DNA from: a virus
Direction: 5' to 3' (one strand)
Virus record (IMG/VR): IMGVR_UViG_3300028592_000014
Span: 1 to 54,406 of that record
DNA length: 54,406 nt
Notes under the pieces: model-generated
The model's input: only the letters and a program-made list of their open reading frames with translations
Told to the model about the DNA's origin: nothing
Database searches by the model: none
In this document: positions 1 to 53,665 of the stretch, piece after piece
Layout of the letters: the number at the start of each line of letters is the position of its first letter
How positions within the stretch are numbered: position 1 is the stretch's first letter
Position numbers and translations under genes: made by a program

Positions 1-231
1 CACTCCTTGGCTCTCACTTGTGCAGCCACGAAGGTTACGTGCCTCATGATCTAGGAGTAACCCCAGGTTCTCGACCAGATCGCCACGAGACCTATGCGGA
101 GCACTATCCAGACGGCTACGAAATGGAGTTTGTGCCAGCCGATGAAGTGGATTCGCACGACGGATTGAATCTTGCATTCCAGCGCAACAAAGCCGCCGCC
201 CCCTCCCAATCAGATAGCGGGAGCAATCATG
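1..231 (+). repeat. Copy A of a 230-bp near-identical duplication (copy B at 41189-41419)
   Basis: Aligned by eye, this stretch matches 41189-41419 with about seven substitutions and no gap. Identity stops abruptly at the ATG of the next gene, around 230. It covers the C-terminal coding part of an ead-type gene. Because the copies are not identical they are not terminal repeats of an assembly. They look like homologous accessory genes from related phages. Confidence 0.9.
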
Positions 232-41113: not shown

Positions 41114-41424
41114 AGCCGAAAATCTACTGCTTTTCAGATACGCCAGACGGCGGCGACGGGATTGCCATTGCAATGGCTGAGGATGGAACAATCCTTGGCT
41201 CTCACTTGTGCAGCCACGAAGGTTACGTGCCTCATGATCTAGGAGTAACCCCGGGCTCTCGACCAGATCGCCACGAGACCTATGCGGAGCACTATCCAGA
41301 CGGCTACGAAATGGAGTTTGTGCCAGCCGATGAAGTGGATTCGCACGACGGATTGAAGCTTGCATTCGAGCGCAACAAAGCCGCCGCACCCTCCCAATCA
41401 GATAGCGGGGGCAATCATGGATGA
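41110..41424 (+). CDS. Ead-type protein, full-length paralogue of the gene at 3-239
   Basis: A 104-residue protein (MKPKIYCFSDTPDGGDGIAI) followed by the region shared almost exactly with the window's first gene. The sequence has the form of phage proteins that start with a two-strand beta unit. Coupled by ATGA. Role unknown. Confidence 0.75.
   Translation: MKPKIYCFSDTPDGGDGIAIAMAEDGTILGSHLCSHEGYVPHDLGVTPGSRPDRHETYAEHYPDGYEMEFVPADEVDSHDGLKLAFERNKAAAPSQSDSGGNHG
41189..41419 (+). repeat. Copy B of the 230-bp duplication (copy A at 1-231)
   Basis: About 97 percent identical to the window start, counted by eye. Identity ends at the ATG of the next gene in both copies, after which the two loci carry unrelated sequence. 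Confidence 0.9.
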
Positions 41425-42435: not shown

Positions 42436-42780
42436 ATGCTAACCGCCGAACAAGCAGCGAAGGAACTGGGAATCAGCAAACGCATGATGTACGGACTCGC
42501 AGCGCCGCATGGCCCGGTTCCATGTGTTCGGTACGGTCCAAAGTGTGTTCGTTTCAGAGAGGAAGACGTCGAGGCATATAAAGAATCATGTCAACATACT
42601 ACGATAAGGATAGAAAGCGTTGGATCTTCGACTTTGACAAGGTCATTAAAGGACACCGGGTCAGAGCTACGAAGACTCTTCCAGAAGGCTGGAATCGAGC
42701 CAAAGCAGAAGCCTACGCAAAAGCCGAAACAGACCGCCTCTACGCCATTGCCACCGGCGCGGCTGAAGAACGTGTCCTGA
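42436..42780 (+). CDS. xis: Excisionase / AlpA-type directionality factor
   Basis: A 114-residue protein. The N-terminal part MLTAEQAAKELGISKRMMYG with VRYGPKCVRFREEDVEAYK is a winged helix-turn-helix of the excisionase/MerR kind. Start ATG 42436 has AGGAG five bases upstream. The frame continues 193 bases into the integrase gene, giving a basic proline-rich tail, so the functional part may be only the first 50 residues. Expected to steer the integrase towards excision. Confidence 0.75.
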   Translation: MLTAEQAAKELGISKRMMYGLAAPHGPVPCVRYGPKCVRFREEDVEAYKESCQHTTIRIESVGSSTLTRSLKDTGSELRRLFQKAGIEPKQKPTQKPKQTASTPLPPARLKNVS

Positions 42781-43637
42781 TCAGCACCGCTGTGGCGCTA
42801 TACATCAAGGAAGTTTGTCCGCGCCTAAAGAACGGGGACGGGGTTATTGCTGAATTGGCCCGCATCCATTGGGCATATGACGGCAGGTTCATGGATGAAC
42901 TGGCGGAAGTTGCGAAGGAGTACAAGGATGGTGCTGTGCGCGAATTGAAAGACGAAAATGGCAACATGAAGGCTGTCCCGCTTTCCCCGGCCAGCATCAG
43001 GAACAAGCTGTCTTACCTACGCGCCGCCTGCCGGTACGCCCAGAAGGAACACCGGCTCGCAAAAACTGCGGACCTAAATGTTTCCATGCCAATTGTCAAA
43101 AATGAGCGTCATCATTACGCCAGTCGGAAGGAAATGCTTCAGATTGCCCGGGCGATGACGAATCGCCGCGCACGCGCCGCACTTCGAGTCGCTTTCTACT
43201 CCGGGATGAGGCTGGGCGAGATTGTTGCAGTCAAGGTTGTTGACGATGCGTTTCTACTGGAAGACACGAAGAATGGGGAGCGACGGATGGTTCCGATCCA
43301 TCCTCGCATAAGGGTTTGCCTGCGATATTTCCCACTTGCAATTCCTAAGATCACCGTACAGCGCCAGTTCAGCAATAAATCGCGGGCGCTTGGGCTGGGG
43401 CATTATCATTTCCATGACATGCGCCATAGCGCGGCCAGTCACATGATTAATGGTGGCGTTGACCTGTACACTGTGGGGGGCGTTTTGGGGCATAAGGATT
43501 CGCGCAGTACAGCGCGTTACAGCCACCTTGCTATTGAATCGCTGGCGGCAGCCGTGGCAAAAATCGGAACGGCTGGCAAAAAATCCCCAGCACCAAAAGA
43601 AAAGGCCGCAGAAGAGCGGCCTTTGAAAGACATCTAA
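42588..43637 (+). CDS. int: Tyrosine-family integrase
   Basis: A 349-residue integrase. Arm-binding N-terminus (MSTYYDKDRKRWIFDFDKVI), core-binding region about 60-170, catalytic residues Arg208 (GMRLGE), Lys228 (DTKNGE), His276 and Arg279 (HDMRH), His302 (LGHKD) and Tyr311 (ARYSHL). The full set is intact. It ends 13 bases before a tRNA-Ser 3' fragment, its presumed attachment core. It overlaps the excisionase by 193 bases. Confidence 0.93.
   Translation: MSTYYDKDRKRWIFDFDKVIKGHRVRATKTLPEGWNRAKAEAYAKAETDRLYAIATGAAEERVLISTAVALYIKEVCPRLKNGDGVIAELARIHWAYDGRFMDELAEVAKEYKDGAVRELKDENGNMKAVPLSPASIRNKLSYLRAACRYAQKEHRLAKTADLNVSMPIVKNERHHYASRKEMLQIARAMTNRRARAALRVAFYSGMRLGEIVAVKVVDDAFLLEDTKNGERRMVPIHPRIRVCLRYFPLAIPKITVQRQFSNKSRALGLGHYHFHDMRHSAASHMINGGVDLYTVGGVLGHKDSRSTARYSHLAIESLAAAVAKIGTAGKKSPAPKEKAAEERPLKDI
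43574..43595 (+). repeat. 22-bp direct repeat, left copy (inside the integrase 3' end)
   Basis: An exact 22-base match to 43806-43827, starting TGGCAAAAAATCC and ending CAGCACCA. The two copies flank the tRNA fragment and are candidate integrase arm sites, or marks of recombination between two integrase ends. Confidence 0.85.
43591..43624 (-). terminator. Terminator facing the tRNA fragment
   Basis: Perfect nine-base stem AAAGGCCGC/GCGGCCTTT at 43601-43624 with a six-base loop. On the minus strand it is followed by TTTTCTTTT. It lies 27 bases beyond the tRNA 3' end, so the phage appears to bring a terminator for the tRNA gene it rebuilds on integration. It lies within the end of the integrase coding region. 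Confidence 0.65.
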
Positions 43638-46195: not shown

Positions 46196-46512
46196 TTGAT
46201 TGCAAACTTACAGACGCCGAGATAAACCACCTTCGCAGGCTCCTTGCTTATGTGCGTTGCGACATAGGGCAAAGTCCAGAGGAAATGAAAGAAACCATCC
46301 GATCCATTGCGCCAGCCGTAGAGAACGCCTCAGATGAAGGTAAGGAGCGTCTCGTGGCTGCGTACAAGAAGGCGGAATCGGTTCCCAAGTACGTCCGCGC
46401 TGCGGTCAAGGCGCTGGAGAAAACCATCGTTCGCCACCATGGGGAAATTGTCGATGCCGATGCAAACCGCGTTGTACAAGAGATTCCTTACCAAGCCACG
46501 GAGAAACCATGA
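46192..46512 (+). CDS. Hypothetical accessory protein (106 aa)
   Basis: A 106-residue helical protein (LTDAEINHLRRLLAYVRCDI; YVRAAVKALEKTIVRHHGEI). ATGA overlap upstream and downstream. No family recognised. Confidence 0.7.
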   Translation: MIDCKLTDAEINHLRRLLAYVRCDIGQSPEEMKETIRSIAPAVENASDEGKERLVAAYKKAESVPKYVRAAVKALEKTIVRHHGEIVDADANRVVQEIPYQATEKP

Positions 46513-46850
46513 ACCTCGACCTTGAAGATCTGAAGAGGAAGGCGGAAGCGGCAACGCCGGGCGAGCGGGAATACGGCGTCCGCAATGATGGATCGATATG
46601 GCTTTCCATCGGCTCCCCGCTGAAAGGGCCGCACTATCAGGGTGACATTGTAGCGACCGCTGCTGACGCTGACTTGATATGCGCCGCCTCCCCCTCCGTC
46701 GTCCTCGAACTGATCGCCAAAATCGAACGACTGCAAGTCCGCGTTGAAGAAAGCTATCAGGCAAAGAAAGAATGGCAATCCCGCGCCAATGACATGTTCG
46801 GAGAAATTAAGCAGTTACACGCCCGTATTGCTGAATTGGAGAAGGAATGA
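46509..46850 (+). CDS. Ead/Ea22-type protein (113 aa)
   Basis: A 113-residue protein beginning LEDLKRKAEAATPGEREYGV and then ADADLICAASPSVVLELIAK, the classic Ea22/ead module (xxKAATPGxW...A.A.P..VL.LI). A coiled-coil tail follows (QLHARIAELEKE). Coupled to both neighbours. Confidence 0.75.
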   Translation: MNLDLEDLKRKAEAATPGEREYGVRNDGSIWLSIGSPLKGPHYQGDIVATAADADLICAASPSVVLELIAKIERLQVRVEESYQAKKEWQSRANDMFGEIKQLHARIAELEKE

Positions 46851-47017: not shown

Positions 47018-47070
47018 CAGCAGATATTTTGATGGAAATTGCGTGTACACTTGGCAAGTTAACAATTACG

Positions 47071-47109
47071 TACTATTACTTACCAACAATTTCCTACTAT
47101 CACTTACCA
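47071..47109 (+). repeat. Tandem 15-bp repeat before the ATP-grasp gene
   Basis: TACTATTACTTACCA (47071-47085) and TACTATCACTTACCA (47095-47109) lie 24 bases apart in an AT-rich leader. The second copy touches the ATG. They may be regulatory sites. No clear sigma70 promoter was found here. Confidence 0.6.
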
Positions 47110-48197
47110 TGCAATCCAAAATATCCAAGCTCGCAACATTGATGAAATACGCCTCACTCGCTAAGGCGAAAACGGGCAAGTCTCACGTCGCCCAATTTAT
47201 GGAGCTGCGGCGTTTCTTTGCTGGCGAGCACAAGCTGGGCATGGAGGAGTATTACGAGCTTGAAATGTTCGATGACCGAGCGTATCAGGGGCTTTCGACT
47301 GCGGATTGCATTGGATGGCGGACGAGTGCCGCTTTGGACAAGAAACTGAATCAAGCTTATTGGCGAGCGATTGCGAACGACAAGCTGCTTAACTACGCCC
47401 TTCTTCAGCACTACGGTTTCAATATCCCCGAGACGGTCGCTATCTTCTCACCTGATGGACGGCGCATTGGCAGCGAAACATGTTTACGAACCGAGGATGA
47501 GCTAAGGGAATTTGTCGCTACCTCACTTCGATATCCGATCTTTGCAAAGCCGGTGAGCGCGGCATTCGGTCGCGGCACTTACCTGTTGACAGGTTTTGAT
47601 TCGGCATCCTCAAGATTCACCGACGTGCATGGGAATCGTGTGCCGTTCGCTGAATTCTTGAAAGACTGCACCAACCGCTTTCATAACGGGATGTTATTCC
47701 AGAAGTGCCTGCAGCCGCACCCCGACGTTCGAGCAATGACCGGGCCGATGACTAGCTGCGTGCGCGTCATTCTGCTGGTGCACAACAATCGACCACAAGT
47801 GCATATGGCATTTTGGAAGATCGCCCGCGCCCACAACATCACCGACAACTTTTGCATGGGTGAAACGGGCAACCTGTTGGCCTGGGTGGATAAAGACAGT
47901 GGCAGAATTGACCGCGTGATTACAGGACTTTGGCCGGATGGCGTAGAGGTGGCAACGCATCCAGACACGCGCCAGACATTGAAGGGGAAGGTGCTGCCGG
48001 ATTGGGGAAAGGCAGTGGAGATGTGCTGCGCTGCAGCCATCAATTTCCCAGGCTTGCGGCTGCAAAACTGGGATGTGGCATTCTGCGAACAGGGGCCAGT
48101 GTTGATGGAGTTGAATACCGAATCCGATCTTGCCATTCCTCAATATCTTGGGCGAACACCGTTTATCAATGACTCGATCCGGGCGGCACTGGCGTGA
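47109..48197 (+). CDS. Sugar-transfer-associated ATP-grasp protein (phage cargo)
   Basis: A 362-residue protein of the ATPgrasp_ST type. Landmarks: NDKLLNYALLQHYGFNIPET (about 90-109), the lysine and loop IFAKPVSAAFGRGT (144-157), TSCVRVILLVHNN (about 215-227), WDVAFCEQGPVLMELN (321-336) with the metal-binding Asp322/Glu334/Asn336, and a C-terminal helix. This family occurs in surface polysaccharide and capsule loci and probably ligates a carboxylate to an amine. ATG 47109 is chosen; the frame from GTG 47043 adds an unlikely AT-rich start. It is the only gene of its kind here and is convergent with Rz, so likely a lysogenic conversion gene. Confidence 0.8.
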   Translation: MQSKISKLATLMKYASLAKAKTGKSHVAQFMELRRFFAGEHKLGMEEYYELEMFDDRAYQGLSTADCIGWRTSAALDKKLNQAYWRAIANDKLLNYALLQHYGFNIPETVAIFSPDGRRIGSETCLRTEDELREFVATSLRYPIFAKPVSAAFGRGTYLLTGFDSASSRFTDVHGNRVPFAEFLKDCTNRFHNGMLFQKCLQPHPDVRAMTGPMTSCVRVILLVHNNRPQVHMAFWKIARAHNITDNFCMGETGNLLAWVDKDSGRIDRVITGLWPDGVEVATHPDTRQTLKGKVLPDWGKAVEMCCAAAINFPGLRLQNWDVAFCEQGPVLMELNTESDLAIPQYLGRTPFINDSIRAALA

Positions 48198-48198
48198 G

Positions 48199-48729
48199 TT
48201 ACTTGGCGTCGTGCTCTGAGCTATTCGTCACCGCCTGAAGCTGCTTGTAGAAGTCTCGGAGCCCAAGGGCTTGTTCTCTCCATGCGAGGCAGGCGGTTGC
48301 ATTGAAGGCATTGGCTTCTGCGACTTCAGCAAGCGGAATGCCGGAGGGTTGGCGGTCAGGCTCGGCGGGAGGTCCGGGAGGCTCACTTGACCAGGCGGCA
48401 TCGTGGACGCGCACGAAGCCAGCATTGACAGTGCAGTTAGCGTTATCAGCTTGGGTAACATAGACAGGGACTTCTTTTTCAATTGTTTCACCTTTGATGT
48501 AGATTTTCTGGATGCGGTCGCGGTATTCGACCTCCTTCTGAATGACTACTTTAGTCTGGGCCTGCGCGATCTTCACGGTCTGCGCAGCCTGCTTGGCCAC
48601 ATACTCAAGGTGCTTTTCTCCCGCAATGCGTTCGCCCCGAATTTGCCCAAGCAGGAAAATGGATGCAGCGGCCAAGGCCAGCGCAAGCCACTTCGACCAC
48701 GACGGCAGGGCGACAGATAGCAGGCTCAT
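48199..48729 (-). CDS. Rz-like inner-membrane spanin of prophage 2
   Basis: A 176-residue protein with one N-terminal membrane segment (WLALALAAASIFLLGQI, about 14-30), a coiled periplasmic part (AAQTVKIAQAQTKVVIQKEV) and a proline-rich hinge before the end. Typical i-spanin. It contains Rz1 entirely in another frame. It overlaps the holin stop by ATGA. Confidence 0.8.
   Translation of the reverse strand: MSLLSVALPSWSKWLALALAAASIFLLGQIRGERIAGEKHLEYVAKQAAQTVKIAQAQTKVVIQKEVEYRDRIQKIYIKGETIEKEVPVYVTQADNANCTVNAGFVRVHDAAWSSEPPGPPAEPDRQPSGIPLAEVAEANAFNATACLAWREQALGLRDFYKQLQAVTNSSEHDAK
48228..48461 (-). CDS. Rz1-like lipoprotein nested in Rz
   Basis: From ATG 48461 a 77-residue lipoprotein: signal MLPKLITLTALSMLASC with lipobox LASC, then a proline-rich part (MPPGQVSLPDLPPSLTANPP). 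It lies wholly inside the Rz gene in another frame, as in lambda. GTG 48491 would add ten basic residues (KQLKKKSLS) and cannot be excluded. Confidence 0.75.
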   Translation of the reverse strand: MLPKLITLTALSMLASCASTMPPGQVSLPDLPPSLTANPPAFRLLKSQKPMPSMQPPASHGENKPLGSETSTSSFRR

Positions 48730-48905
48730 GATTCAGCCTTCGCCGTCGCCTTCTGCGCGACATTACCGACGATATAAGCGCCCACGGTTGCGATCACCAC
48801 GGCGGAATACACACCATCAGCAATATGCCCCGCATAGACAAGCCATGTCGCCGAAGCGAGCGTTGCCAGCGCCAGAAGGAACTTCCTGCTTGCGTACCGT
48901 TTCAT
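48726..48905 (-). CDS. Pinholin-like protein
   Basis: A 59-residue protein with two membrane segments (KFLLALATLASATWLVYAG; VYSAVVIATVGAYIVGNVA), the size and form of S21-type pinholins. The start ATG 48905 has GGAGG five bases upstream and overlaps the lysozyme stop. A pinholin fits with the SAR endolysin next to it. Confidence 0.65.
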   Translation of the reverse strand: MKRYASRKFLLALATLASATWLVYAGHIADGVYSAVVIATVGAYIVGNVAQKATAKAES

Positions 48906-49408
48906 TGCGCCTCCATGCATTTCTTGTGCCGCTCTTGTGCTCGCAACCAAACGCCGCGACAGTTGTTTTCACGGATAGAGCAATCTCTTCCGGCTGCTCT
49001 ACGAGAATCAAGATTCAAATATGCTTCACACGCTGCAACATAGTTCCCGGCGTTGATGTTCTTTACCACCTCAGATCGACAGGTGCCGCCAGATCCGCGC
49101 CAATAACCAAAATCCACCAGAATGTCCCACTCCTCTTGGTGCAAATCGCCAGTCACGCACCGCTTGAGCTGAAGTTCATCCTTGCCAATGTGGGCGATAC
49201 TCTTACGCATCGCCTTAACGGGCGTAGTCTTATCGCCCATCTTTACTGGTGAACCATCCTCATGAAATGTGCTTCCGAATCCAACCGTTGGCCGGTCACC
49301 TTTGATCGGAATGATGGACGTATCTGTGTAGCCTTCATTCGTCACGATTCCAATAAACCCTGCCGCCGAAAGAGTCAGCGCCGTGACAGCGATCCGCACC
49401 TTGCTCAT
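48902..49408 (-). CDS. SAR-type phage lysozyme (GH24-like)
   Basis: A 168-residue lysozyme. An N-terminal weakly hydrophobic segment rich in Ala/Ser/Thr (IAVTALTLSAAGFIGIV) looks like a signal-anchor-release helix. The catalytic section is TNEGYTDTSIIPIKGDRPTV with Glu25, Asp38 and Thr41, then GFGSTF. WDILVDFGYWRGSG is the second conserved part. Several cysteines may form disulphides. Start ATG 49408 overlaps the holin stop; the frame from 49528 is rejected as antisense to it. Confidence 0.85.
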   Translation of the reverse strand: MSKVRIAVTALTLSAAGFIGIVTNEGYTDTSIIPIKGDRPTVGFGSTFHEDGSPVKMGDKTTPVKAMRKSIAHIGKDELQLKRCVTGDLHQEEWDILVDFGYWRGSGGTCRSEVVKNINAGNYVAACEAYLNLDSRRAAGRDCSIRENNCRGVWLRAQERHKKCMEAQ

Positions 49409-49593
49409 GTTCTGCCACCCTTCCCTCGCCCTCTTCGCTTTCCAAGAAAACTTTGCACTGTCTTTGTCTCGTATATCCGTATCGCCCCCCAAATAATCGA
49501 TACCAGAGCGGCAATTGATGGCAGCCATCCGGCCAAAGTGGTAAAAACAACGCTAAGAGATAGCGTGTCGCCGAGTGACTTGAGATTGTCCAT
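49405..49593 (-). CDS. Class-II holin-like protein
   Basis: A 62-residue protein: LSVVFTTLAGWLPSIAALVS and IIWGAIRIYETKTVQ give one or two membrane segments, followed by a basic tail (KRRGRGKGGR). It resembles T7-family holins in pattern. AAGGATT lies upstream. It may be the main holin, with the pinholin-like gene as partner or antiholin. Confidence 0.7.
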   Translation of the reverse strand: MDNLKSLGDTLSLSVVFTTLAGWLPSIAALVSIIWGAIRIYETKTVQSFLGKRRGRGKGGRT

Positions 49594-49838: not shown

Positions 49839-51176
49839 CTAACTGGCGCGTATGTAATGATTTTTGAATGCTTCTGCGATAGCGCCTGGCCGCAAATGTG
49901 TTTCTTCCAGATGCCAGAGCTTGTTTGATATTCCATCGCCGCGATCCGTCATCCGGTACACGTCGAGGAAGTCTAGGCCAGCGGCGAGCGCATGAGCTTT
50001 CAGGCGTTCATTGAACTGCCTGATGACAGAAACAAGCTGCGCCGCTTTATCTGCTTCCAGTGACGACAAATCCCAATTCGTTGCCGGAACGCCGCAGATG
50101 ATCACTTTGAAGTCGCGTTCTGTCGTCTGGCTCGCAACGTAATCTATATAGCCGGAAACAGTCCGTTCAATGATGCCCTCTACCGTGCCGCCCTTGGTGT
50201 GCAATACCTTGATGACCCCCTCATCTGGACGACAATCGATTTCGCCAACGGTCAGCAGGATCGATGACCCATTCGGCAAGGAACGGAGAATTGATTCGAA
50301 CTGCGGTTTGAAGCGATTCCTATCCTCCGATCGCAAATGCCATTGCTTACAACCAAGTATCCAACTGCTGCGGCAACGCATCGCCTTCCCATCAATGGTA
50401 ATAAGGGTGTTATGTGGCGAAAGGGAATGGCTCTCGCCAATAACATGCAGCGCTTCGCTTTGCTCATTCGTAGACGCCGGGGAAAAAGCGATAAGGGATG
50501 CCAAATAGCGAAAATAATTATGTAGCTTGGTGGAGCCTATCACCTGCGAGTTTTGATATACGTCGATGATGGCTTGAGTCTCTCGAATATCGCCGCGCAA
50601 AAAGCGCAATACTGCAAGAAATGCGGCTGAATCAGCAACCCAAGCGTCAAGCGGATTACCCAAAATTCTGGTGAAGCAGTCTATCGCGCCGCTCATGTCG
50701 CCGGACGAATACAGTGCGCTACCGAGATTATGGGCAACGCCGCTGTCGTTCGTCCGTATCTCTAGCGTTTTCTTGTAATACACAATGGCCTGATCTATTT
50801 CTCCGACTGTGTACGAGATAGTGGCCAAATTGTTATACGGCGCATAATAGGCTGGATCGCAGGCAATGGCCTGCTGATAACACTTGATGGCTTGGTCATG
50901 CATCTTTTGGCTGAGGAAGACATTCCCAAGATTTTTATGCGCCTCTGCAAAATCTGGCTTTGCCGATATCGCCCTGTTTAGATACATAGACGCCATCTCA
51001 CGCTGGTCTTCACGGAGGGATATCATCCCCAGCAAATTCAATGCGCCCGGCTGTTCTGATCTGACCCCAATGATCTGCAAACAAAATGACTTCGACGCCG
51101 CCAATCTTCCGGCCTGGTAGTGCTCTTTGGCTATATCAATTGCTTGGTCAATCGTAAGCGTTACGTCCTGCCCCAT
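49839..51176 (-). CDS. TPR-SGNH-like putative esterase (phage cargo or tail-linked)
   Basis: A 445-residue protein in two halves. Residues about 10-170 contain five TPR-type repeats (AHKNLGNVFLSQKMHDQAIK; YNNLATISYTVGEIDQAIVY; AHNLGSALYSSGDMSGAIDC). Residues about 240-440 look like an SGNH/GDSL hydrolase: GESHS (247-251, Ser249), GEIDCR (311-316) and EETHLRP (424-430, His427). Asn of the usual third block is Asp314, and block one has GES for GDS. No signal peptide. ATG 51176 has GGGAG seven bases upstream. It might add or remove acyl groups on surface polysaccharide, or on the phage fibre target. Confidence 0.7.
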   Translation of the reverse strand: MGQDVTLTIDQAIDIAKEHYQAGRLAASKSFCLQIIGVRSEQPGALNLLGMISLREDQREMASMYLNRAISAKPDFAEAHKNLGNVFLSQKMHDQAIKCYQQAIACDPAYYAPYNNLATISYTVGEIDQAIVYYKKTLEIRTNDSGVAHNLGSALYSSGDMSGAIDCFTRILGNPLDAWVADSAAFLAVLRFLRGDIRETQAIIDVYQNSQVIGSTKLHNYFRYLASLIAFSPASTNEQSEALHVIGESHSLSPHNTLITIDGKAMRCRSSWILGCKQWHLRSEDRNRFKPQFESILRSLPNGSSILLTVGEIDCRPDEGVIKVLHTKGGTVEGIIERTVSGYIDYVASQTTERDFKVIICGVPATNWDLSSLEADKAAQLVSVIRQFNERLKAHALAAGLDFLDVYRMTDRGDGISNKLWHLEETHLRPGAIAEAFKNHYIRAS

Positions 51177-51225
51177 CCCAACTCTCCCGCGCATTGTTTT
51201 GCGGGATTATATGCCGGAAATTGAC

Positions 51226-51789: not shown

Positions 51790-52766
51790 ACAAATCCAAC
51801 CTTTCTGATGGCGAAGATGTTCCGATTGGTTGTGCCAGTGGTGCCGCCACTGCCACTCGTATGCGCCCGAATAACATCGCCCGCGCTGAGCATTACCGTT
51901 CGACTAACAACGGCTCGGCCTGTTGATCCAGCATTCCCTACTTGCGTCGAAAGCATAAGCCTGTTTGCCACAGTGATATTAGCGACAGCCGTTGTCAGTT
52001 CTGAGCTATTTACAGAAACACCAATGATGTTATCGACCGGCCCCTCATCAGAGTAATGAATTGCATACAAGCCAGTATCATTGATCGTAAAACTCGCGCC
52101 GTTCGCCGCACTATCCGCATAGGTAATCGCAGTGCCGACATTAACCATTGCAGTTGTAAATCTTCGAATCACCGTATTGGTTGACCCATAGCCGTTTCCT
52201 GTATGGACAACAACCTCATGATTTCCGACTGCCGCCACTGGGCCGGTGTCACCCTTATCACCATTTCGCGTGAACAACAGAAGAATCGAATCCCCATTCA
52301 CAAATGGACTTGTATCGCTTGAGCCCACATTCGTGACCGCCAAATTCCGGTACCCGGAAGGCACTGACAGGGCGGCTGCATTGAACGCAAGCCACTTCGT
52401 TCCATCACTCACTTTGACGAGCCGAACTTGTCCTTTCACATCGCTTGTCGAGTCGTCGAAGGTATCGAGAACATTGGTCCAGGTCTTGCCATCAGCGCCG
52501 GTTAGATCAAAGCGCATGGTTGTAGCCGCGTTCTGCGTGGCGTTATTCAAGCGCAGCATACCCGCGCCAGGATCGGAATCTGTCGTAGTGGTCGAGAACG
52601 TGTACGGGATCGCAAACGCAGTACCGGCAGCAATGGCAGTCATCGCAGCGGCTAGTTCATTCGCCTCTACGCCAAATTGAGGAATGAGACTTCCGAAGTA
52701 CGTATCAACATCAGTTTTAAACGAGCCGGACGTTCTGTCCAGCGGGGGTAATGGTGTAATTGACAT
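51786..52766 (-). CDS. Tail fibre with C1q/TNF-like C-terminus
   Basis: A 326-residue fibre. The N-terminal part (PLDRTSGSFKTDVDTYFGSL) and VKVSDGTKWLAFNAAALSVP are standard fibre segments. A short collagen-like GDKGDTGP (about 171-178) precedes a C-terminal jelly roll (SFTINDTGLYAIHYSDEG; MLSAGDVIRAHTSGSGGTTG), like trimeric C1q/TNF heads. It should bind the host surface. Confidence 0.75.
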   Translation of the reverse strand: MSITPLPPLDRTSGSFKTDVDTYFGSLIPQFGVEANELAAAMTAIAAGTAFAIPYTFSTTTTDSDPGAGMLRLNNATQNAATTMRFDLTGADGKTWTNVLDTFDDSTSDVKGQVRLVKVSDGTKWLAFNAAALSVPSGYRNLAVTNVGSSDTSPFVNGDSILLLFTRNGDKGDTGPVAAVGNHEVVVHTGNGYGSTNTVIRRFTTAMVNVGTAITYADSAANGASFTINDTGLYAIHYSDEGPVDNIIGVSVNSSELTTAVANITVANRLMLSTQVGNAGSTGRAVVSRTVMLSAGDVIRAHTSGSGGTTGTTNRNIFAIRKVGFV

Positions 52767-53665
52767 TAGATGAGGCCCTCAACTTCCAGTGAGCAAAGAT
52801 GATGCGCAGGGTATGCAACATCGATTGAAAAATCCTTGAAGAATCCGTAGACGATCAAGGGCTCATAGCCTTGATACTCGGTTCCGATATAAACAGCAGG
52901 CGTGGCACGAAGCGCAACCAAGGTTCGATAGATTTTGTTGAACCGATATTTTTCGGTAATGACCTCGAACGTTCCCTTCTTGCTGTAGGCCCGCTGGACA
53001 ATGATCGTATTGCCCCACTGGTCTCGGTCCTTTTTGCTGTAATCGACGATACCGACACGCGCCCCGTATTGAGTTCCGCCGATGTCGATTACCATCCCCG
53101 GCTTGCATACGCCACAGGCCGCATCGCCACTTGTGGCAGTAATCGTGATCGTCAATTCGCAGCCTGTGAACTGCCCTGGCAGGTCCGTCAATACGGCATC
53201 GGTGCGCTGTTCGAATTCGCTGAAAAACCAGTCGTAGATGCTTTCAATGATCGTGCCGTCGAGGTCGATAGTCCGGTCATACACCACCGTCCCGCCGGGT
53301 CCGTCTTTCATCGTCGCCTGCACCTGCCTTCCCATCAGTTCAAGCAGAGCAAGGCCGGTAACGCTTCCCGGCTCCAGAACCACAGTAAGCGGAGAATCGT
53401 GGGTGGTGACGGTTCCAACTACATCATCAAACATCGCCCAACGGTTTGTCGGGCCGATGTCGAGCCAGTTTGTCGAATCGCTTTCCGGTGGCGTTGTGCC
53501 TGCCCCAGCAGTGAGGCGTTCATAGATGCGATGCGTTTCGACCCTGATTCTCTTATCTCCGATTACATACGTAGTGCCGGATACCCACACTGCATGGTCA
53601 TCCTCTGCAACCGTGCTTGAAACCAGCATTGCATCAGTGATGACTGTCGGCTTAATTACCTTCAT
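52766..53665 (-). CDS. Tail tip / distal tail protein (putative)
   Basis: A 299-residue protein. The first part VIGDKRIRVETHRIYERLTA with TPPESDSTNWLDIGPTNRWA looks like a small carbohydrate-binding module found on tail tip proteins. The rest is beta-rich (AVYIGTEYQGYEPLIVYGFF). It lies between the tape measure and the fibre. Function by position. Confidence 0.6.
   Translation of the reverse strand: MKVIKPTVITDAMLVSSTVAEDDHAVWVSGTTYVIGDKRIRVETHRIYERLTAGAGTTPPESDSTNWLDIGPTNRWAMFDDVVGTVTTHDSPLTVVLEPGSVTGLALLELMGRQVQATMKDGPGGTVVYDRTIDLDGTIIESIYDWFFSEFEQRTDAVLTDLPGQFTGCELTITITATSGDAACGVCKPGMVIDIGGTQYGARVGIVDYSKKDRDQWGNTIIVQRAYSKKGTFEVITEKYRFNKIYRTLVALRATPAVYIGTEYQGYEPLIVYGFFKDFSIDVAYPAHHLCSLEVEGLI

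Follow-up and report, generated by a model that had tools for sequence, protein, structure and literature searches.

Does the ATP-grasp gene on the plus strand of virus record IMGVR_UViG_3300028592_000014 belong to a phage, and what could its product do there? The window analysed here is the whole stretch of 54,406 nucleotides. The original prediction had taken 47043-48197 for an ATP-grasp ligase gene carried as phage cargo, whose product would change host surface sugar by forming an amide or an ester. We found that the enzyme family is a known one whose setting here is unusual, and the phage-borne and intact status of the ligase is well supported.

The composite record and the phage around the ligase gene

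We found that window positions 100-41165 are 100% identical, over the full length, to a separate virus record of 41,066 bp (G404). In addition, window 1-231 recurs at 41189-41419, and both copies are the end of one small gene. The identical record and the 97% repeat at the join rule out the whole window as one phage; two different temperate phages are joined in it. The recurrence of window 1-231 agrees with a left part that is a podovirus-type phage, circular and about 41,188 bp long; its genes include a portal gene (phrog_1216), a head gene (phrog_1328) and a serine recombinase. The second phage, which is temperate and tailed, starts at about 41.4 kb (~41.42), runs to 54.4 kb and holds the ligase gene. 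The join at 41.2-41.4 kb may be an assembly error or the border of two neighbouring elements. We identified the following features at the join and in the second phage.

41189-41419, plus strand: place where the two phages join; repeats window 1-231 at 97%, with 7 mismatches
42588-43637, plus strand: tyrosine integrase of the ligase-bearing phage (phrog_1), with a 48% match in Bordetella avium phage IFTN8
43660-43730, minus strand: 3' half of a tRNA-Ser, an attP-like site beside the integrase; the ligase is 3.4 kb away (from sequence)
46509-46850, plus strand: small early phage gene, weak Ead/Ea22-like match, phrog_368 (Pfam, PHROG)
47043-47108, plus strand: in-frame 5' extension or leader, with no counterpart at homologue starts
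47061-47108, plus strand: tandem repeat of 2 x 24 bp (AACAATTWCSTACTATYACTTACC) with 3 mismatches, abutting the ATG
47109-48197, plus strand: ATPgrasp_ST (PF14397) ligase gene, 362 aa (Pfam, alignments, model)
48199-48729, minus strand: Rz-like spanin or signal-peptide protein (phrog_4952), convergent, its stop 1 bp from the ligase stop
48902-49528, minus strand: endolysin, Phage_lysozyme PF00959, phrog_7 (Pfam, PHROG)
49839-51194, minus strand: TPR protein with an SGNH-hydrolase-like C-terminus, 1.6 kb from the ligase; Pfam match only at E 0.057
52766-53665, minus strand: tail-region gene (phrog_6278), 98% amino acid identity to tailed-phage record G405

Two side observations concern the phage pair. 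Each phage has its own site-specific enzyme, the serine recombinase at 305-1882 in one and the tyrosine integrase at 42588-43637 in the other. A 380-aa gene without a PHROG match in the left phage (19694-20836, minus strand) has 86% DNA identity to G405 (L185:1-1044 and L039:1-305). Common to a podovirus-type phage and the siphovirus-like G405, this gene is apparently a recent exchange between phage types.

The second phage runs from the integrase and the attP-like site through early genes to the ligase, followed on the other strand by convergent lysis and then tail genes. The ligase therefore lies, as a moron gene does, between phage genes of a temperate phage (integrase, attP-like site, lysis, tail). 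The original prediction placed the gene alone in a phage; phage genes do flank the ligase, but the window is composite and only its right-hand phage carries it. The tRNA-Ser site matches Burkholderiales tRNA loci best (93% over 58 bp), which only suggests a host among the Burkholderiales. G405, the nearest relative, has terminase, portal, Clp-type protease and capsid-like genes (named by eye, the terminase also through homology to that of another phage contig, L206), and it ends before the ligase region. More distant phage relatives, whose tail gene matches at no more than 58%, are without the ligase. No relatives of the integrase or of the TPR-SGNH gene were found in IMG/VR, and a single contig, which is composite, is all that represents the ligase-bearing lineage.

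The TPR protein is encoded in the tail-to-lysis operon, and its GESHS, GEIDCR and EETH motifs resemble those of SGNH hydrolases. It is a possible, weak candidate for a second surface-acting gene. Given this protein, the earlier claim that the ligase has no neighbours of related function is correct only in part.

The ligase gene, its family and its predicted fold

The region 47043-48197 is one uninterrupted open reading frame. Because six homologues begin at that point in the alignment, the protein most likely starts at ATG 47109, giving 362 aa, and 47043-47108 is probably leader rather than coding. A start at GTG 47043 would add 22 hydrophobic residues. Shine-Dalgarno pairing is absent at ATG 47109 (+2.9 kcal) and weak at GTG 47043 (-3.3), so the 22-residue extension is possible, although the homologues are without it. 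A sigma-70 promoter scan revealed no site close to the ligase gene on its strand.

The AT-rich leader noted at the outset is real: the 91 bases upstream of the ATG have 35% GC against 53.5% in the gene. The 15-bp tandem repeat described with it is absent. Instead, the repeat at 47061-47108 has a 24-bp unit, with copies AACAATTACGTACTATTACTTACC and AACAATTTCCTACTATCACTTACC. None of 100 shuffles reproduced this pair, and it is the sole 24-bp tandem of its kind in the window. The repeats are open and in frame within 47043-47108 and would encode the hydrophobic stretch NNYVLLLT-NNFLLSLT.

The profile search bore out the ATP-grasp landmarks of the original prediction. The protein matches PF14397 (ATPgrasp_ST) with 117 bits (E 1.2e-33), far above the curated cut-off of 31.4, across residues 73-346 and profile positions 3-263 of 278. 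K92, K147, R219, D246, G254, D322, E334 and N336 do not vary among the aligned members (30-32 sequences). We take the Lys/Lys and Asp/Glu/Asn sets to be the ATP and magnesium ligands, as in ATP-grasp enzymes such as DdlB. By NCBIfam the protein belongs neither to the RimK-like nor to the TIGR02291-like ligases: the rimK_rel_E_lig match is weak (25.9 bits, cut-off 314.2) and the other stays at 15.3 against 143.4 bits. There was no PHROG match, and a PDB sequence search gave nothing meaningful. A literature search found no paper naming PF14397 or tying ATP-grasp proteins to exosortase clusters, and no described reaction for PF14397; the sugar-transfer label rests on genome context.

The gene is under purifying selection relative to its relatives (pN 0.24-0.38; pS 0.73-0.80, with synonymous sites near saturation). 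Compared with the Noviherbaspirillum gene, differences at codon positions 1, 2 and 3 number 94, 77 and 208, mostly at the third. The frame is intact in the homologue alignment, and this together with the codon-level constraint rules out a relic gene; the frame break named earlier as a sign of decay was not seen.

Furthermore, we examined an AlphaFold (AF2) model of the ligase (pLDDT 93.9, pTM 0.92). Among solved structures, those closest in fold are ArgX at Z 16.6, RimK at 16.2, LysX at 15.5 and D-Ala-D-Ala ligases at 15.4 or less, and the whole RimK/LysX/ArgX/Ddl comparison falls at Z 13-17 with 14-19% identity, indicating an ATP-grasp fold. The phage ligase has the fold and catalytic layout of these enzymes (Z 15-17), but their substrates are other ones and no PDB relative appears by sequence. 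All four of these enzyme types form amide or peptide bonds. Since the nearest folds do so, the model favours an amide over an ester as the product, though a common fold is no proof of a common reaction. Of the two bonds first proposed, the amide (carboxylate-amine) would thus fit the fold, and nothing favours the ester.

ATP-grasp proteins of other families are already known from phages. Proteins of Cellulophaga phage phi14:2, Pseudomonas phage Bjorn and Pectobacterium phage CBB have the fold too (Foldseek E 1e-6 to 1e-4), but at about 13-14% identity, and a sequence search with the phage ligase misses them. In Pseudomonas aeruginosa, RloC/RloB includes a cytoplasmic ATP-grasp protein with a role in biofilm and stress traits (PMC12239564); it differs from the phage ligase in ATP-grasp subfamily and operon, and is without a phage link.

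Chromosomal relatives and other phage copies

The closest relatives of the ligase are at six genomic loci (50-61% identity, the nearest 61%), five of them betaproteobacterial. The phage ligase groups with the protein of Noviherbaspirillum denitrificans (bootstrap 97 and SH-aLRT 77 in a careful tree; 96 in a quick tree), and the two are nested in a clade of chromosomal proteins (99/97). This clade is sparse, being present at E 1e-80 in 1/150, 3/401 and 5/250 genomes of three families; the wider family at E 1e-20 is present in 13/399 genomes of the order. DNA similarity to the chromosomal loci is confined to the coding region. These comparisons of sequence place the origin of the phage ligase inside a clade of betaproteobacterial chromosomal proteins of exopolysaccharide clusters, and the gene is probably host-derived.

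The Noviherbaspirillum gene adjoins PEP_O_lig_1 (TIGR03097, 532.6 bits, cut-off 188); a polysaccharide deacetylase and a Polysacc_synt_3 Wzx-type flippase are also beside it. In Dechloromonas, genes nearby include those for a bacterial sugar transferase and PrsK (TIGR02916, 895 bits), and at one Rhodoferax locus they include GNAT and MurF-like ligase genes. Sugar-transfer neighbours were typed for Noviherbaspirillum (L003) and Dechloromonas (L006). The relatives with typed neighbourhoods sit in betaproteobacterial exopolysaccharide clusters, XrtA/PEP-CTERM ones among them, which upholds the predicted link to surface-polysaccharide genes.

A second PF14397-type gene is adjacent at L002-L006 and L013. 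The chromosomal pairs of Noviherbaspirillum (L003), Gallionella (L002), Rhodoferax (L004/L005) and Dechloromonas (L006) agree with the phage ligase in PF14397 clade, residues and length, at 50-61% identity. In contrast, only one of the two genes is present in the phage, where it has attP on one side, lysis genes on the other and no polysaccharide neighbours. Searches of the window, Pfam and PHROG among them, found neither a second ATP-grasp gene nor sugar-transfer neighbours. With one gene and no such neighbours, the phage locus is not of the XrtA/PEP-CTERM exopolysaccharide type with an ATP-grasp pair.

Several other arrangements were observed at these and further loci. An exopolysaccharide cluster encodes a fusion of a MurF-like ligase with a peptidyl-tRNA hydrolase domain (L005:12252-14192, minus strand), and similar MurF-like ligases occur in three or four tandem copies at L004 and L196. 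On a Lichenicola plasmid, a PF14397 gene (L008:6548-9089) stands beside a damage-inducible mutagenesis / Y-family polymerase cassette, not sugar genes.

An IMG/VR scan with a broad family profile identified two further PF14397 genes in undoubted phage contexts, so that the idea of phage cargo gains from recurrence as well as from the flanking phage genes. L206 encodes a 349-aa protein (PF14397 E 1.2e-29), preceded by anti-repressor (Rha/KilAC) and O-like replication genes and followed by a terminase that is 53% identical to that of G405, the relative of the ligase phage. The L206 ligase shares 67% identity with a protein from Noviherbaspirillum's order (pS 0.80, pN 0.21). L207 encodes a 337-aa protein (E 6.9e-52) in an AT-rich siphovirus prophage, between Dit-like and endopeptidase tail genes and upstream of an amidase. 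Both proteins retain all invariant catalytic residues, and neither has a PHROG match. Members of PF14397 have entered at least two other phage lineages separately. IMG/VR searches with the single ligase protein, its close family and the partner family returned no relative, and five PF14397 queries against 50,697 deposited phage records gave 0 matches.

A single origin of the three phage ligases was also considered, and the tree uniting them was rejected (AU p 6e-57, with long branches). Near the L206 ATP-grasp gene lies a gene for a trypsin-like peptidase (PF13365; L206:6170-7165), possibly part of a cargo island.

A predicted role in the lysogen

On balance, we lean slightly towards a host-derived ATP-grasp carboxylate-amine ligase that is conversion (moron) cargo of a temperate tailed phage and modifies a surface polymer of the lysogen. 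The gene is read as phage-borne conversion cargo because phage genes flank it on both sides and it stands between integrase/attP and lysis genes. The presumed acceptor is a surface polymer because the neighbours of the chromosomal relatives are polysaccharide genes. In the lysogen, the enzyme would activate a carboxylate with ATP to an acyl phosphate, which an amine would attack to form an amide bond. The acceptor would be a sugar or lipid-linked precursor of the host surface polymer, the probable task of the chromosomal relatives. Since the phage is without the second ATP-grasp gene usual beside these relatives, the ligase product may need host partners. The altered surface would be expected to change the lysogen's exposure to other phages or its aggregation.

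RimK-like modification, in which the amino acids would go onto a protein of the phage or the host (a virion, ribosomal or regulatory one) and not onto a surface polymer, seems to us unlikely. RimK and LysX/ArgX, the nearest folds, act on protein carboxyl groups, and the weak rimK_rel_E_lig match points the same way; but likeness of fold does not fix the acceptor of an ATP-grasp enzyme, no acceptor gene was recognised beside the ligase, and the close relatives are in polysaccharide clusters. We give rather little credence to a passenger gene, captured recently by chance and of no gain to phage or lysogen. The single contig, the odd leader without a Shine-Dalgarno sequence and the missing partner gene are what such a capture might leave, but the frame is open at 61% identity from the nearest relative, with codon-level constraint, and two other phages took up the family separately. 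The least likely rival, which we consider very improbable, is that the gene is host DNA fused to a phage by assembly error. The join at 41.2-41.4 kb already makes the contig composite, and narrow IMG/VR queries found no second contig with the gene; however, the phage flanks are tight, with the early gene upstream and the spanin stop codon 1 bp downstream, and the DNA likeness to chromosomal loci does not extend beyond the coding region.

The preferred reading, conversion cargo acting on a surface polymer, resembles known serotype conversion in its layout. The converting genes of Shigella phages and the YA3 O-acetyltransferase adjoin int-attP (PMC7326022). In Shigella SfI/SfII/SfV/SfX/Sf6, Pseudomonas D3 and YA3, the cargo is a single surface-modifying enzyme gene near int-attP (PMC7326022), and the phage ligase is 3.4 kb from its attP-like site. 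The known cargo enzymes of the Shigella phages, D3 and YA3 are glucosyl- or acetyltransferases, whereas the phage ligase is a predicted ATP-grasp ligase. A wider proposal, possible but more doubtful than the reading of this one gene, is that ATPgrasp_ST ligases are recruited again and again by temperate phages whose hosts are unrelated, for amide (amino-acid or other) decoration of the lysogen's surface polymer; this chemistry would differ from the glucosylation and acetylation known in phages.

Floc formation in Aquincola requires exopolysaccharide genes that come with PrsK and PEP-CTERM genes (PMC9850573). The chromosomal relatives of the ligase belong to exopolysaccharide systems of this kind, which betaproteobacteria need to form flocs. 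Because floc formation depends on such clusters, a surface change could matter for aggregation or adsorption. If the proposed role is true, the ligase would add a third surface-converting phage chemistry beside glycosylation and acylation, and the trait could influence how cells aggregate and how phages compete in water and sludge. The three separate phage copies make this a testable idea and offer a route to the PF14397 reaction.
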